Part shown: in pieces, positions 5,881-26,681 of the stretch
How the letters are laid out: every line of letters starts with the position of its first letter
Position numbering within the stretch: the first letter of the stretch is position 1
DNA from: Alloalcanivorax mobilis
GTDB taxonomy: Bacteria > Pseudomonadota > Gammaproteobacteria > Pseudomonadales > Alcanivoracaceae
Assembly: GCF_002864685.1 (NCBI RefSeq)
Contig: NZ_NMQZ01000043.1
Coordinates: forward strand, 1 to 44,521
Direction of reading: 5' to 3'
DNA length: 44,521 nt
The notes under the pieces: generated by a model
The model's input: only the letters and a program-made list of their open reading frames with translations
Database searches by the model: none
Told to the model about the DNA's origin: nothing
Made by a program: the position numbers and the translations under genes

Positions 5881-5950
5881 GCAAGCCTCAAGCTTCAAGC
5901 TACAGGCGGGCTACGTAGCTTCCCTTGTAGCTTGCGGCTTGTAGCTTGCG
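5881..5950. repeat. Inverted heptamer array, locus A
   Basis: Left array of period-7 units GCAAGCC, TCAAGCT, TCAAGCT, ACAGGCG (5881-5908) and right array CCTTGTA, GCTTGCG, GCTTGTA, GCTTGCG (5923-5950). The right array is roughly the reverse complement of the left, so the region can fold into a long imperfect stem. It lies in the 264-base interval between the esterase and bolA, which holds no gene. Loci B (20231-20380) and C (26631-26681) share the layout. Confidence 0.8.
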
Positions 5951-17601: not shown

Positions 17602-18720
17602 TCATCCGAAATGGTCCGGCGCCGGCGTTGCCCGCCGCAGGGTGTTCCGCCCGCCGGCCTTGGCCTGATAGAGGGCTTTGTCGGCCCGGTCAATGAAGGT
17701 GGCGGCGGACTCCTGGCGCTGGTGCCCGGCGAGGCCGCAAGACAGGGTGACCCGCAAACCCGTATCGAACCGGTAGGGCTCGGCGGCGAAGCGTTCACGC
17801 AGCCGGGTGATGGCGGCCTCGCAATCCGCATAATCCGCCTGTGGGAACAATATCACGAACTCTTCGCCGCCGTAGCGGGCCAGCACATCGGAACGGCGCA
17901 GGCACTGGCCCGCCACCGTGGCGAAGCGTTGCAGCACCTGATCGCCGGCGCGGTGGCCGTAGTTGTCGTTGATGCGCTTGAAATGATCCAGATCGATCAG
18001 CGCCAGATGCACCGGCGGGCCACCGCGGTCGTGGCGCATTAACTCTTCGTCCAGGCGTTCCAGAAAGTGACGGCGGTTGAACAGGCCGGTGAGCTCATCG
18101 CGCACCGCGATGCGGGCCAGCCGGTCGTGGGCCTGGCGCAGCGATACGCGCTGGGCTCGAAACTGCTGCTGCAGGTTATGAATGTAGCCGCCCATGAACA
18201 CGAACCAGCACAGAATCAGCAACAGAATGCTCCACTGGCTCAGGGACAGGGTGAGAATCTGCTGCAGTGGCGTGCGCAACCATTCGTAAATCAACAGCCC
18301 GGTGAAGGCGACCTGGGCGGTGGCCGCCATCAGCACCTGCTGGCGGCGGTTCAGTGAGAACACCCCGAAGGTCATCATCATCAGATAGAGGCTGAGCATG
18401 GCGCCGCGCAGCTCGCGGGCGTGATGAAGAAGCAGGGTGATCACGACGATGCCGGCGAGCATCTGCACCATGGTCAAGCTGGGGTCGTGGAAGCGCTCGC
18501 TGAAACCGGTGCGAATCGCGATAAAGAACAGCCCGTTCAGAGCGCACAGGGTGCCGAAAATCAACAAATGCGGGGTGCGCGGGTCGAGAATCGACAATTC
18601 GGCGCCCAGCCAGGTGCCCAGCCACATCAACGCGTACGAATAGATGGCCATCATCAGTCGCCGCAGGCGCAGCGCGCGCTCGGGACGATGATCCGCAAAC
18701 AGGAAAAATTCAGTGCTCAA
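17602..18720 (-). CDS. Membrane-bound diguanylate cyclase (GGDEF)
   Basis: 372 residues from a TTG start. N-terminal membrane domain with about six helices (residues ~25-195), a short linker, then a GGDEF domain starting RDELTGLFNRRHFLERL. The active site reads GGEEF and the inhibitory c-di-GMP site RxxD (RRSD) lies five residues before it, so a feedback-inhibited active cyclase is expected. It makes c-di-GMP from GTP at the inner membrane. No ATG in frame gives a sensible N-terminus upstream of the helices; TTG at 18720 has GAGGATC upstream. The open frame beyond 18720 is low-complexity and was not included. Confidence 0.88.
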   Translation of the reverse strand: MSTEFFLFADHRPERALRLRRLMMAIYSYALMWLGTWLGAELSILDPRTPHLLIFGTLCALNGLFFIAIRTGFSERFHDPSLTMVQMLAGIVVITLLLHHARELRGAMLSLYLMMMTFGVFSLNRRQQVLMAATAQVAFTGLLIYEWLRTPLQQILTLSLSQWSILLLILCWFVFMGGYIHNLQQQFRAQRVSLRQAHDRLARIAVRDELTGLFNRRHFLERLDEELMRHDRGGPPVHLALIDLDHFKRINDNYGHRAGDQVLQRFATVAGQCLRRSDVLARYGGEEFVILFPQADYADCEAAITRLRERFAAEPYRFDTGLRVTLSCGLAGHQRQESAATFIDRADKALYQAKAGGRNTLRRATPAPDHFG

Positions 18721-19101
18721 TGCCCGATCCTCAGTGGTCGCCCCCCACTCTCCGCACGCTCCGCACGGGCGCGAGCACGTGTTCCGCCAGGGCAAAAGCC
18801 CGCCCCACGTGCTGCCTGCGTCCCAACCCGCGGCCGTACCTGACTCGGCCCGCGGGTTGCCATGCCCGGTCCGGTCAACGTATCGGCCCGTCCCGACATG
18901 GCAAAATGCCATGGCCGTCCAAGAGTAGCGGCGCGGCGATTTAAATCAACGCTATGACTTGCCGGTCAGACCACTCGATGACAGACTCAGGCTGTTAAAC
19001 GAACGTTTGAATGCCGGCCCGCCGTTCCTCGAACAGGTGGCCCGCGCAATGACTCAAAGCCGGGCTGCCAGGGCGGCCACGGCCAGCAAGGGATGGAAGC
19101 G
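18721..19101. other. Divergent intergenic region between diguanylate cyclase and acyl-CoA dehydrogenase
   Basis: 381 bases without a supported gene. The left half is GC-rich and shows nothing clear. The right half has an AT-richer stretch near 18940 and a PsrA-type dyad at 18995-19011. Confidence 0.6.
18995..19011. promoter_or_regulatory. PsrA/FadR-like (TetR-type) operator candidate
   Basis: AAAC-GAAC-GTTTG at 18997-19009 inside a longer imperfect palindrome. It matches the Pseudomonas PsrA consensus (AAAC-N2..4-GTTT) except for the base preceding the left arm. It sits 91 bases upstream of the acyl-CoA dehydrogenase start. PsrA derepresses beta-oxidation genes when long-chain fatty acids bind. 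Confidence 0.5.
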
Positions 19102-20220
19102 ATGGATGACACTCAAGGAGCGGCGCTGGCCGATCCGCCTCTCGATCTGCGCCTTACCGAGGAGCAGCGCATCAGCCGCGAAGGGATGCGCCGTTTCGTG
19201 GCCCGTGACCTGGCACCGCTGGCGCGCTCGGCGGACGAGGCAGGCACCGCTCAGGCGGCGGTGTTGGACGCGGTGGCCGGCTTTGGCCTGCCGTTGATGA
19301 GCATGCCGGAAGCCCTCGGTGGCGCCGGTCTGCCGCGCTCGCCGTTGGGCAACGTGCTGGCCTGCGAAGATCTGGGCCAGGGCGACATGAGCCAGGCACT
19401 GGCCGCGCTGCAGCCACTGGGGCTGGTCAACGCGTTGATCGATTTCGCCAGCGACGCCCAGCAGGAGGCCTGGTTGCCGCGCTTCGCCAGCGAGACGCTG
19501 GTGCCGGCCGCGGTGGCGCTGGGCGAGCCGCGTGCGACTTTCGATCCCGGCGCGCCGGCGACCACCGCCCGCCGCCAGGGCGAGGACTACCTGCTGAACG
19601 GGGAAAAGAGCCTGATTCCTCTGGTGGAGCGCTGTGAACTGTTTCTGGTGATCGCCGTCGCCGAGGACGGCCCGGCGGCGTTTCTAGTGGAAGCGGATCG
19701 CGCTGGCATGAGCCGGCAACGGCGTGACTACATGGGCCTGCGGGCCGCCGAGCCGGGCAGCCTGATATTGGAGGACGTGACCGTGCCCGCCGGCCATCGC
19801 CTGGAACACTTCGACCTGACCCGGCTGGTGGCACTGGCGCGCCTGGGTCAGGCGGCCCTGGCGGTGGGTTGCTGCCAGGCGGTGCTGGAGCAATGCGTGC
19901 CCTATGCCCTGGAGCGCAAGGCGTTCGGGGAGCCGATTGCCCAGCGCCAGTCGGTGGCGTTCATGATCGCCAACATGGGCATCGAGATCGAAGGCATGCG
20001 CTTGTTGGTCTGGCGCGCCGCCAGCCGCGCCGAGCAGGGGCTTTCTTTCCATCGGCAAGCCTACCTGGCGGCGCTGCAAGCCACCGAGAAGGCGATGGAA
20101 ATCGGCACCAATGGCGTGCAAGTGTTCGGCGGCGCCGGCTTCGTGCGCGATTACCCCCTGGAAATGTACTACCGCAACCTGCGCGGCCTGAGCGCCCTGC
20201 ACGGCGCGGTGATGGTTTGA
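19102..20220 (+). CDS. Acyl-CoA dehydrogenase family protein, C-terminally short
   Basis: 372 residues with the ACAD order: N-terminal helical domain (LTEEQRISREGMRRFV), middle beta-domain, and C-terminal helical domain with RKAFGEPIAQRQSVAFMIANM and FGGAGFVRDYPLEMYYRNLRG. The chain ends LSALHGAVMV, where most ACADs read a YEG-type motif with the catalytic Glu; here His is at that position and the last ~15 residues are missing. It may therefore use another base or have a changed reaction. ATG 19102 is preferred over 19093 because AAGGG then sits 9 bases upstream. Preceded by a PsrA-like operator, and followed by a second ACAD after a repeat array. Confidence 0.9.
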   Translation: MDDTQGAALADPPLDLRLTEEQRISREGMRRFVARDLAPLARSADEAGTAQAAVLDAVAGFGLPLMSMPEALGGAGLPRSPLGNVLACEDLGQGDMSQALAALQPLGLVNALIDFASDAQQEAWLPRFASETLVPAAVALGEPRATFDPGAPATTARRQGEDYLLNGEKSLIPLVERCELFLVIAVAEDGPAAFLVEADRAGMSRQRRDYMGLRAAEPGSLILEDVTVPAGHRLEHFDLTRLVALARLGQAALAVGCCQAVLEQCVPYALERKAFGEPIAQRQSVAFMIANMGIEIEGMRLLVWRAASRAEQGLSFHRQAYLAALQATEKAMEIGTNGVQVFGGAGFVRDYPLEMYYRNLRGLSALHGAVMV

Positions 20221-20230
20221 TTTTGCGCTA

Positions 20231-20380
20231 GACGCTAGACGCTAGACGCTAGACGCCGGACGCCGGACGCCGGACGCTAGGATCAAAACAGGTCTTGCGT
20301 CTTCGCATTACAGCTTTGCGTACGGACAAACGTCCGAAGCGAGCGGGTTTAAGCGTCCGGCGTCCAGCGTCCGGCGTCAG
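20231..20380. repeat. Inverted heptamer array, locus B
   Basis: Left array: seven exact-period units, GACGCTA x3, GACGCCG x3, GACGCTA x1 (20231-20279). Right array: four units, GCGTCCG, GCGTCCA, GCGTCCG, GCGTCAG (20353-20380), which are reverse-complement forms of the left units. The 73-base spacer includes the small dyad CGGAC-AAAC-GTCCG (20323-20336). It fills most of the gap between the two acyl-CoA dehydrogenase genes. Confidence 0.9.
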
Positions 20381-20400
20381 GCTAAAAAACAAGGAATCCC

Positions 20401-21612
20401 ATGATCAATCTCGAACTGCCCAAGGCATTGAGAAACATCCAGGCCATGACCCATCAGCTCGCGGAGCAGGGGTTTCGGCCGATTTCGCGGAAATACGACC
20501 GCATTGAGCACGGTGACACGCCCGCCGAGCTGAAGCCGCTGGCGCAGATGATCGCCGCGGCCCGGCCGCGCGGGCGCAAGGCCGGGGAGGGCGCTGACGG
20601 CGCGGACCCGGACGCGGTCAAGAATGGCGCCAATCTGATCGGCATCGTCAGTGTTGAAGAGATGTGCTGGGGGGACGTCGGTCTGATGCTGTCGCTGCCG
20701 GCGGCGGGGCTGGGCAACGCCGCCATTCAGGCGGTGGGCAGCGCCGAGCAGAAGCAGCAATACGGCAAGCTGTATTGCGCCATGGCGATCACCGAACCCG
20801 GCGCCGGTTCCGATTCCGCGGCGATCACCACCACCGCCCGTCGCGACGGCGACGAATGGGTGCTTAACGGCGAAAAAATCTATTGCACCGGCGGCCAGCG
20901 CTGCGACGCGGTGGTGGTGTGGGCGACCCTGGACAAAGCGTTGGGCAAGGCGGCGATCAAGTCGTTCATCGTGCCGCGGGATAACCCGGGCATGAGTCTG
21001 GTGCGGGTGGAAGACAAAATGGGCCTGCGCATCTCCGACACCGCCGCGCTGGCCTTCAATGAGTGCCGGATTCCCGCCGACCATGTGCTGGGCTCGGCGG
21101 AGATCGCCGACACCGAAGCGGCCCGCAAGAAGGCGTTCGGGGGCGTGATGCAGACCTTCGACAACACCCGCCCGCAGGTGGCGGCGATGGCGTTGGGCGT
21201 GGCCAGGGCGGCACTGGAAATCACCCGTGAAATTCTTGAAAAAGAAGGTGTTAAAGCCGACTTCTCGAAATCACCTTATAATTCAACCGCCACCGAACTG
21301 GAGCTGTATCGCCTGGAAGCCGACCTGGAGGCGGCGCGGCTGATGACCTACAAAGCCGCCTGGATGGCCGACAACGGCCAGGCCAATTCCAAGGAGGCCT
21401 CGATGTGCAAGGCCAAGGCCGGGCGCATGGGCAACGAAGTAACCCTGAAATGCGTGGCGCTGTGCGGCGAGGCGGGTTATTCCGAGCGCCACCTGTTGGA
21501 GAAGCTGGCGCGCGATTCCAAGATCATCGACATCTTCGAGGGCACCCAGCAAATTCAGCAACTGATCGTGGCGCGCCATCTGCTCGGGTTGTCATCACGG
21601 GAGCTCAAGTAG
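20401..21612 (+). CDS. Acyl-CoA dehydrogenase
   Basis: 403 residues, full-length ACAD. CAMAITEPGAGSDSAAITTTARRDGDEWVLNGEK is the FAD/substrate-binding middle segment. The C-terminal helical domain includes TFDNTRPQVAAMALGVARAALE, and the end reads DIFEGTQQIQQLIVARHLL, with the catalytic Glu in the FEGT motif. Oxidises acyl-CoA to 2-enoyl-CoA, passing electrons to ETF; chain-length preference cannot be read. AAGGA precedes the start. Separated from the upstream ACAD by the heptamer array. One local patch, around 21240-21290, is AT-richer than its surroundings. Confidence 0.94.
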   Translation: MINLELPKALRNIQAMTHQLAEQGFRPISRKYDRIEHGDTPAELKPLAQMIAAARPRGRKAGEGADGADPDAVKNGANLIGIVSVEEMCWGDVGLMLSLPAAGLGNAAIQAVGSAEQKQQYGKLYCAMAITEPGAGSDSAAITTTARRDGDEWVLNGEKIYCTGGQRCDAVVVWATLDKALGKAAIKSFIVPRDNPGMSLVRVEDKMGLRISDTAALAFNECRIPADHVLGSAEIADTEAARKKAFGGVMQTFDNTRPQVAAMALGVARAALEITREILEKEGVKADFSKSPYNSTATELELYRLEADLEAARLMTYKAAWMADNGQANSKEASMCKAKAGRMGNEVTLKCVALCGEAGYSERHLLEKLARDSKIIDIFEGTQQIQQLIVARHLLGLSSRELK

Positions 21613-26579: not shown

Positions 26580-26596
26580 CCGCTCTGGTGGTGATC

Positions 26597-26624
26597 AAAA
26601 AAGCCCGCTTCGGCGGGCTTTTTT
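26597..26624 (+). terminator. Rho-independent terminator of glcB
   Basis: AAAAAAGCCCGC-TTCG-GCGGGCTTTTTT: perfect stem with a UUCG tetraloop and T6, 18 bases after the glcB stop. The A-run makes it usable on the minus strand too, where it serves the convergent exported-protein genes. Confidence 0.95.
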
Positions 26625-26630
26625 GTGGGA

Positions 26631-26681
26631 GCAAGCCGCAAGCCGCAAGCCGCAAGCTCAGCCTGTAGCTTGTAGCTTACA
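26631..26681. repeat. Inverted heptamer array, locus C
   Basis: Left array GCAAGCC x3 then GCAAGCT (26631-26658); right array GCCTGTA, GCTTGTA, GCTTACA (26661-26681), reverse-complement in type to the left units. Period is exactly 7 within each arm. The right end overlaps the stop codon of the minus-strand secretin-like gene. Same unit family as locus A at 5881. Confidence 0.85.

Follow-up and report, generated by a model that had tools for sequence, protein, structure and literature searches.

The tandem heptanucleotides of the cyanobacterium Calothrix carry the label STRR. Three such sequences, all of them of unit length seven, are reported from one genome (PMC4692102). Neither inverted pairing nor anchoring at stop codons is known for them. 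The closest known counterpart of the elements described here is provided by the heptamer arrays of Xanthomonas (and Nostoc), which are built of GGGAATC / GGGGA(C/T)T units (Rehm et al. 2015, PMC4692102). Two Xanthomonas genomes contain 186 and 183 heptamer sets and 70 and 75 opposed pairs; the sets lie on average 28 nt from the 5' neighbour gene versus 160 nt from the 3' one, and 7-8% of them are found between divergent genes (PMC4692102). The same source reports that heptamers are over-represented among bacterial tandem repeats, and a polymerase-footprint hypothesis was proposed there, which has seen little follow-up. Another intergenic tandem heptamer, TAACTGA, occurs as 169 sets in one genome of the Beggiatoaceae (MacGregor 2015, PMC4679880).

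REP, REPIN and BIME sequences are small dispersed palindromes located mostly downstream of genes, and in a few species REP dimers are nested in larger palindromes (Di Nocera et al. 2013, PMC3733652). In E. coli, 446 of 4,072 REPs are no more than 15 nt away from a stop codon (RepRanger paper, PMC12306157), and ribosome stalling has been reported for those less than 16 nt from the stop (Liang et al. 2015, cited in PMC12306157). The Foldback and Galileo elements of Drosophila have long, internally repetitive inverted ends (PMC3573991).

The window, that is the whole stretch of 44,521 bases analysed here (contig C38 of the 4.098 Mb Alloalcanivorax mobilis genome, which is in 92 contigs), contains an element that resembles the Xanthomonas and Nostoc arrays in its exact seven-base units, its intergenic location, its many copies per genome and its opposed pairs. 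Unlike the G-rich quadruplex unit of those arrays, the units found here are of the GACGC, CAAGC, CACGC, GTTRAAA, CACTGAA, CAGGAT and AGTTGA types. Moreover, opposed pairs are few in Nostoc, unlike here, and the sections of PMC4692102 drawn on describe no empty-site insertion, core element or same-site replacement for Xanthomonas or Nostoc. The TAACTGA arrays also differ, being direct repeats with one inverted exception and lying mostly upstream of start codons (PMC4679880). As with the REP dimers in palindromes (PMC3733652), REP-like palindromes are nested in some heptamer-element cores. Unlike tagged REPs, which are palindromes of 20-40 bp with an unpaired GTAG or CGTC at one end, 18 aligned type-2 cores (see below) showed by eye no such tag by the stem of their palindrome, CGTC itself occurring in the heptamers. 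The inverted ends made of tandem repeats are those of a foldback element, although Foldback and Galileo are eukaryotic and Galileo has a transposase, while the elements here are short with no coding part recognised (PMC3573991). Among the matches listed in the open-licence literature on Alcanivorax, there was no description of such elements. They are a variant of the heptamer-repeat/REP-like kind, puzzling in their fixed period and in their varied junction occupants. One genus harbours several heptamer units side by side, mostly as opposed pairs and as whole insertions right past stop codons, and the occupant of a junction can differ even where two genomes are nearly identical. The reason for a period of seven, the agent that moves the elements and the effect of a hairpin at a stop codon thereby become testable questions in bacteria.

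The heptamer element of the window and its empty sites

It had been predicted that two opposed period-7 arrays lie at 20231-20380. Both arrays are real, with 7 and 4 units at 20231-20279 and 20351-20378, and they stand between two acyl-CoA dehydrogenase genes. Genes were called from codon usage, and the acyl-CoA dehydrogenase identity comes from Pfam matches. The features are the following.

5881..5950, no strand: locus A, a CAAGCYN-type heptamer hairpin with arms at about 5881-5906 (by eye) and 5924-5950
19093..20220, plus strand: upstream acyl-CoA dehydrogenase gene, whose stop borders the element (codon-usage call, Pfam)
20221..20230, plus strand: outer edge, TTT and the decayed unit TGCGCTA, adjoining the stop TGA
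20231..20279, plus strand: left arm of seven GACGCNN units (read from the sequence)
20280..20350, plus strand: core, an aberrant core of type 1 (GGATCAAAAC ... CGGGTTT)
20351..20378, minus strand: right arm of four NNGCGTC units, the reverse complement of the left-arm unit
20379..20396, plus strand: outer edge before the downstream start, end approximate (empty-site comparison)
20401..21612, plus strand: downstream acyl-CoA dehydrogenase gene (codon-usage call, Pfam)
26631..26680, no strand: locus C, a CAAGCYN-type heptamer hairpin between convergent genes, with arms at 26631-26657 and about 26663-26680 (the second by eye)

Read from the inside outwards, the left-array units are GACGC followed by TA, TA, TA, CG, CG, CG and TA, in exact period, and the units of the right array are AAGCGTC, CGGCGTC, CAGCGTC and CGGCGTC. 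The spacer between the arms measures 71 bases from whole unit to whole unit and 73 to the first GCGTC. Between the upstream stop TGA (20218-20220) and the left array lie ten bases, and these include a decayed eighth unit, TGCGCTA, directly before 20231. No Rfam family was found in the window at gathering scores.

The proposal that loci A and C share this architecture held in part: both have opposed heptamer arms of the CAAGC type with short loops, but these were recognised partly by eye, the tandem-repeat finder catching one arm of each and the stricter pair caller calling neither. Locus A lies 58 bases past a stop codon, outside the stop-codon rule described below. A terminator-like hairpin with a T run (by eye) is present at 26593-26624, after the malate synthase G gene and before locus C, and a GGDEF diguanylate cyclase gene (17602-18654, minus strand) is located upstream of the acyl-CoA dehydrogenase pair.

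We consider, with a probability of about 0.62, that the feature at 20231-20380 is a copy of a miniature mobile element, non-coding, REP-like and foldback in style, whose family members sit as hairpins past stop codons. The two acyl-CoA dehydrogenase genes are 180 bases apart in the window versus 11 in G004, G009 and G010, the three of 12 relatives in which both flanks aligned (about 80% identity); in these the 11-base gap holds the ribosome-binding region (9-13 bases unaligned). The other nine relatives, left out of the comparison, gave 69-77% matches to gene pieces, perhaps paralogues. The window copy is an insertion absent from G004, G009 and G010.

Six other A. mobilis sites gave 48 of 60 relative-by-site cases without a period-7 element, as classified by eye: 8 of 11 relatives at the first site of L015 and 4 of 4 at the second, 11 of 11 at L122 8398, 10 of 11 at L122 8850, 7 of 11 at L122 9996 and 8 of 12 at L117 6265. 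Two of the relatives hold the palindrome GTAGGAGCGGCTTC at L122 8398, and four hold a short GCGTC/GACGC sequence at L122 8850. Over two syntenic blocks A. mobilis is about 78-83% identical to its relatives. Orthologous sites are therefore polymorphic for presence or absence of the element, as is the case for MITEs.

A genome-wide class anchored at stop codons

The pattern of four GACGC units, GACGCNNGACGCNNGACGCNNGACGC, matched the A. mobilis genome 258 times on the forward and 228 times on the reverse strand (overlapping windows, not arrays), versus 0 and 1 matches for the reversed-pattern control, and the window arrays are far beyond chance. Among 12 relatives of the genus, G008 gave 145/285 and G012 44/44 matches (forward/reverse), G005, G006 and G007 gave 2-8 forward matches, and seven (G001-G004 and G009-G011) gave 0-1 matches per strand. 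No match was obtained in 16 genomes of other genera.

The period is not tied to this unit. A search over periods 4 to 13 for inverted array pairs of any unit, in 444.5 kb of A. mobilis, gave 25 pairs with period 7 and a single one with another period (6). In 765 kb of eleven relatives it gave 20 pairs with period 7 and again a single exception, with period 8. The density in the relatives is biased because part of the 765 kb was chosen for synteny with A. mobilis elements; 100-kb samples of four relatives contained 1, 0, 1 and 2 period-7 pairs. Over 14 stretches (269 kb) from ten genomes of other genera, no inverted pair was found at periods 5 to 12. Since 24 of the 25 A. mobilis pairs fall within 400 kb of sampled stretches, the genome would hold roughly 250 by extrapolation. 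With 258/228 matches against 0/1 in the control and 25 inverted period-7 pairs, the original prediction was right, and even too modest, in seeing a class of element and not an accident.

Strict arrays tell the same period: 20 stretches of 20 kb plus the window contained 54 at period 7, none at periods 4, 5, 8 and 13, two each at 6 and 10 and one at 11. The 9, 10 and 5 arrays at periods 9, 12 and 15 are expected in coding sequence, these periods being multiples of three, and the 30 at period 14 are a harmonic of 7. The stretches were placed at round positions on element-bearing contigs, and some of the matches inside them were visible beforehand.

Examined stretches yielded 41 distinct elements (the list has 42 rows, one element, in L020, being entered twice) that share one plan of heptamer array, core and opposed array. 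Most of the cores belong to one of two recurring types or are composites of both. Core type 1 carries TTGCGGCTACGCA, and core type 2 carries the palindrome GGTGTGTTTnCTG...CAGnAAACACACC, which in an alignment was common to 18 chosen type-2 cores. The inner edges of the arms are sharp and the outer edges decay into GGCGCTR and then into noise. Six unit types are present in A. mobilis, namely GACGCYR (also GACGTCN), CAAGCYR, CACGCTG, GTTRAAA, CACTGAA/AAACTGA and CAGGATA, and AGTTGAC is a further one in relatives. The pair caller demands shared 6-mers between the arms, and elements with unlike arms are missed.

Out of 82 strict arrays, the nearest period-7 neighbour was inverted for 56 and unrelated for 7, and 19 had none within 200 bases; the arrays without an inverted partner (19 + 7 of 82) count against a mobile element. 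At 1660-1943 of L014 a right-hand half-element occurs three times at a spacing of 121 bases, with identical sequence around the arm in two of the copies, which suggests that part of an element was duplicated locally in tandem. The end of A. mobilis contig C68 (L013) and the starts of G008 contigs C5 and C30 lie within GACGC arrays, and thus the arrays may break assemblies and the counts may be lower bounds.

As with REPs in general, the copies are dispersed, extragenic and downstream of genes. Of the 25 elements in the sampled set, 16 occupy a same-strand junction, 9 a convergent one and 0 a divergent one, out of totals of 259, 52 and 55 such junctions. A coding repeat was rejected, because a seven-base unit shifts the reading frame and all 25 sampled elements are intergenic by the gene calls, one of them with a partial overlap of a called gene. 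In a larger set 67 elements were placed, with one more unplaced and a few overlapping calls included where elements adjoin (L009, L016): 43 same-strand, 18 convergent and 6 divergent. As many as 41 of the 43 same-strand elements start from -17 to +17 bases from the upstream stop codon, which falls inside the called array in 12 and precedes or borders it in 29 (-2 to +17); the remaining two are 36 and 261 bases away. Like the Xanthomonas sets (PMC4692102), they are nearer the upstream gene, 42 of 43 being closer to the upstream stop than to the downstream gene; for 6 of 43 the downstream start is no more than 20 bases away as well. Compact operons alone would account for the 41 of 43, but not for the 20 elements with more than 100 free bases: 18 of these are no farther than 20 bases from the stop, and 0 are that close to the start. 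As the stop is inside the array in 12 of 43 cases, part of the anchoring may stem from reading frames running into arrays, and the anchoring could also result from loss of insertions elsewhere instead of targeting. Relative to transcription, the type-1 core is oriented along it in 12 of the 43 cases, against it in 5 and is unassigned in 26.

The original prediction also held that the arrays could form a large cruciform or an RNA stem. A strong hairpin is indeed possible: the window element folds as RNA at -93.5 kcal/mol (z -8.8). For the type-2 core, one of 21 predicted pairs varies on both sides and 20 of 21 show no two-sided change, and thus covariation argues neither for nor against a role as RNA.

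Occupants of one junction and the origin of the arrays

The presence and absence of whole elements, the dispersed copies with shared cores, the stop-codon position and the slippage blocks are established. A family of mobile elements would bring them together as follows. Two inverted tandem-heptamer arms around a short, often palindromic core would be mobilised by some system and inserted in either orientation, whole elements (arms plus core) coming and going between relatives and settling mostly in the first bases past a stop codon. The arms would then gain and lose seven-base units by slippage, with the period kept and the sequence of the unit perhaps drifting. In the mRNA, judging from the fold, the element would form a strong hairpin directly 3' of the stop codon, and it is probably kept at the 3' end of genes because it is harmless or useful there. 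Its use may be in shielding the upstream message or in affecting ribosome release, by analogy with the REPs of E. coli.

Slippage was part of the original prediction and is borne out. Identical adjacent units numbered 151 of 259 versus 110 (sd 5.4) after shuffling within arms, a value reached in 0 of 2000 shuffles, and one arm has one GCGTG unit more in G006 than in G005; it is these alike neighbours and this one-unit difference that point to slippage.

The same junction may hold different heptamer hairpins. At L122 9996-10085 the arms are of the CAAGC type in A. mobilis and G001, CACGC in G003 and G012 and GTTRAAA in G002, and there is no element in 7 others; around L122 9996 the block is 95% identical between G001 and G003 and 94% between G012 and G011. 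The L117 6265 junction has CAGGATA arms in A. mobilis (with an 85-base spacer) and in G001, G003 and G010 (with a short spacer), and GTTRAAA arms in G002. In G012 (L196) this junction shows the palindrome GTAGGAGCGACTTC beside a likely remnant of a CAGGATA arm (by eye), which looks as if it had replaced the heptamer element. The first junction of L015 holds a CACGC element in G005, G006 and G008. At the site corresponding to A. mobilis L122 13196-13870, the flanks of G005 and G006 are 98.3% and 99.5% identical and the elements of both have AGTTRA-type arms, yet the two elements gave no BLAST match to each other at E 1e-3. Although its flanks match only at 90-93%, G008 carries the G005 element here in inverted orientation (L215 6920-7078, L216 6862-7095), the two copies being 98.4-98.9% identical and the one in G008 having 66 extra bases, a REP-like palindrome, in its middle. 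An old element may have been inverted in place, but since the element is more conserved than its flanks two recent insertions at one junction fit better.

Over the two syntenic blocks, which were chosen because they held A. mobilis elements, relatives were occupied in 13 of 50 cells with an A. mobilis element versus 5 of 167 without. The cells are not independent, as three of the 13 look like one CAGGATA element by descent and six share one junction; the caller moreover missed the G001 and G003 elements at L122 9996.

Such recurrence could be read in another way, namely that the stop codons of certain genes are docking sites that exchange whole hairpin cassettes. A system recognising gene 3' ends would build or extend arms in seven-base steps out of any sequence, and, if true, this would explain both the single period whatever the unit and the different hairpins at one junction, near-identical genomes included. 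We take this to be possible but rather unlikely.

An origin in place would need no mobile element: polymerase slippage and template switching would turn the spacer past a stop codon into heptamer hairpins, seven being the preferred slip length. The slippage blocks and the many units all of length seven agree with it, as does an array at L120 15023-15117 that passes from GACGCC through GCCGCCG and GCCGCTG to AAAACTG with the seven-base register kept, and the published heptamer excess and polymerase hypothesis (PMC4692102) point the same way. However, arrays born in place should not share cores between loci. Nor would such an origin easily explain why two species with flanks of only 90-93% identity carry an element, core included, that is 98-99% identical and reversed, or why the elements of G005 and G006 lack a BLAST match to each other although their flanks are 98-99% identical. 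For these reasons we find such an origin unlikely.

It is improbable, too, that the arrays act in chromosome organisation or in regulation by presenting the GACGC pentamer many times over to a DNA- or RNA-binding protein. Phases 1-5 of the GACGC unit hardly vary (phase 4 is the same in 493 of 493 units) and phases 6-7 do (T 230/C 257 and A 156/G 263/T 67), which speaks for it, although units with fewer than 3/5 matches to GACGC were dropped, a filter that inflates the conservation of phases 1-5 and favours this explanation. Against it stand the six unit types of A. mobilis and the different types at the same junction across species, which no one protein would fit, and the seven relatives with 0-1 four-unit matches per strand.

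The original prediction had further proposed that slippage changes the arms and that selection keeps them complementary, for a cruciform, the opposing arm mirroring the unit types of the first. The arms do share their unit type and a hairpin is possible, but the shared type is a requirement of the pair caller itself, which asks for common 6-mers. In 48 GACGC elements unit identity at the same position was 0.351 between the two arms of one element and 0.379 when arms were exchanged among elements; the corresponding overlap of unit sets was 0.591 versus 0.549 (reached in 248 of 2000 permutations), and the unit numbers of the two arms were not correlated (-0.08). Arm-to-arm alignment, applied to five families with two others of three members each left out, gave no excess in the GACGC, CAAGC, GTTRAAA and CAGGAT families and a weak one in the AGTTGA family (150/5000). 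The arms of one element being no more alike than swapped arms, the mirroring was rejected and the selection is not supported; what complementarity there is stems from the common unit type alone, and a cruciform maintained by selection is very improbable.

Transcription terminators or attenuators between genes, which the strong intergenic hairpin, the downstream position and the 0 of 25 sampled elements at divergent junctions would suit, are the least credible explanation, and an intrinsic terminator was rejected, as the window element has no terminator-like site, TTTT occurs within 15 bases past the distal arm in 2 of 43 same-strand cases, and the element is inserted inside a gene pair that is compact in relatives.

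Candidate movers

For a mobile element family, a RAYT would be an obvious candidate mover, and the transposase search covered Y1_Tnp only. Genes with this domain are found in 13 of 13 genomes of the genus, with 2-5 in each, but their number does not follow that of GACGC in the 13 genomes, and GACGC, type-1 or type-2 motifs occur within about 1.5 kb of 0 of 3 Y1_Tnp loci in A. mobilis. A RAYT was thus rejected as mover, there being no link either in the motif scan of the three loci or in the counts. In this the elements differ from GTAG-tagged REPs, copies of which flank a RAYT gene, as they do in having tandem heptamers for arms. No target-site duplication was recognised by eye at the window site, and a scan of the unpaired arrays for an inverted partner up to 6 kb away likewise revealed no larger coding parent element.

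Two CAAGC arrays in L122, at 13761 and 17564, are inverted and 3.8 kb apart; they could be the split halves of one element or a composite that carries genes. In L045 a Y1_Tnp (RAYT-like) gene (1426-1881) has its own REP-like doublet (TGTGGGAGCGGTCCTTGACCGCGAA) on both sides, with copies at 1141-1226, 1315-1400 and 2068-2153 that are unlike the heptamer elements.
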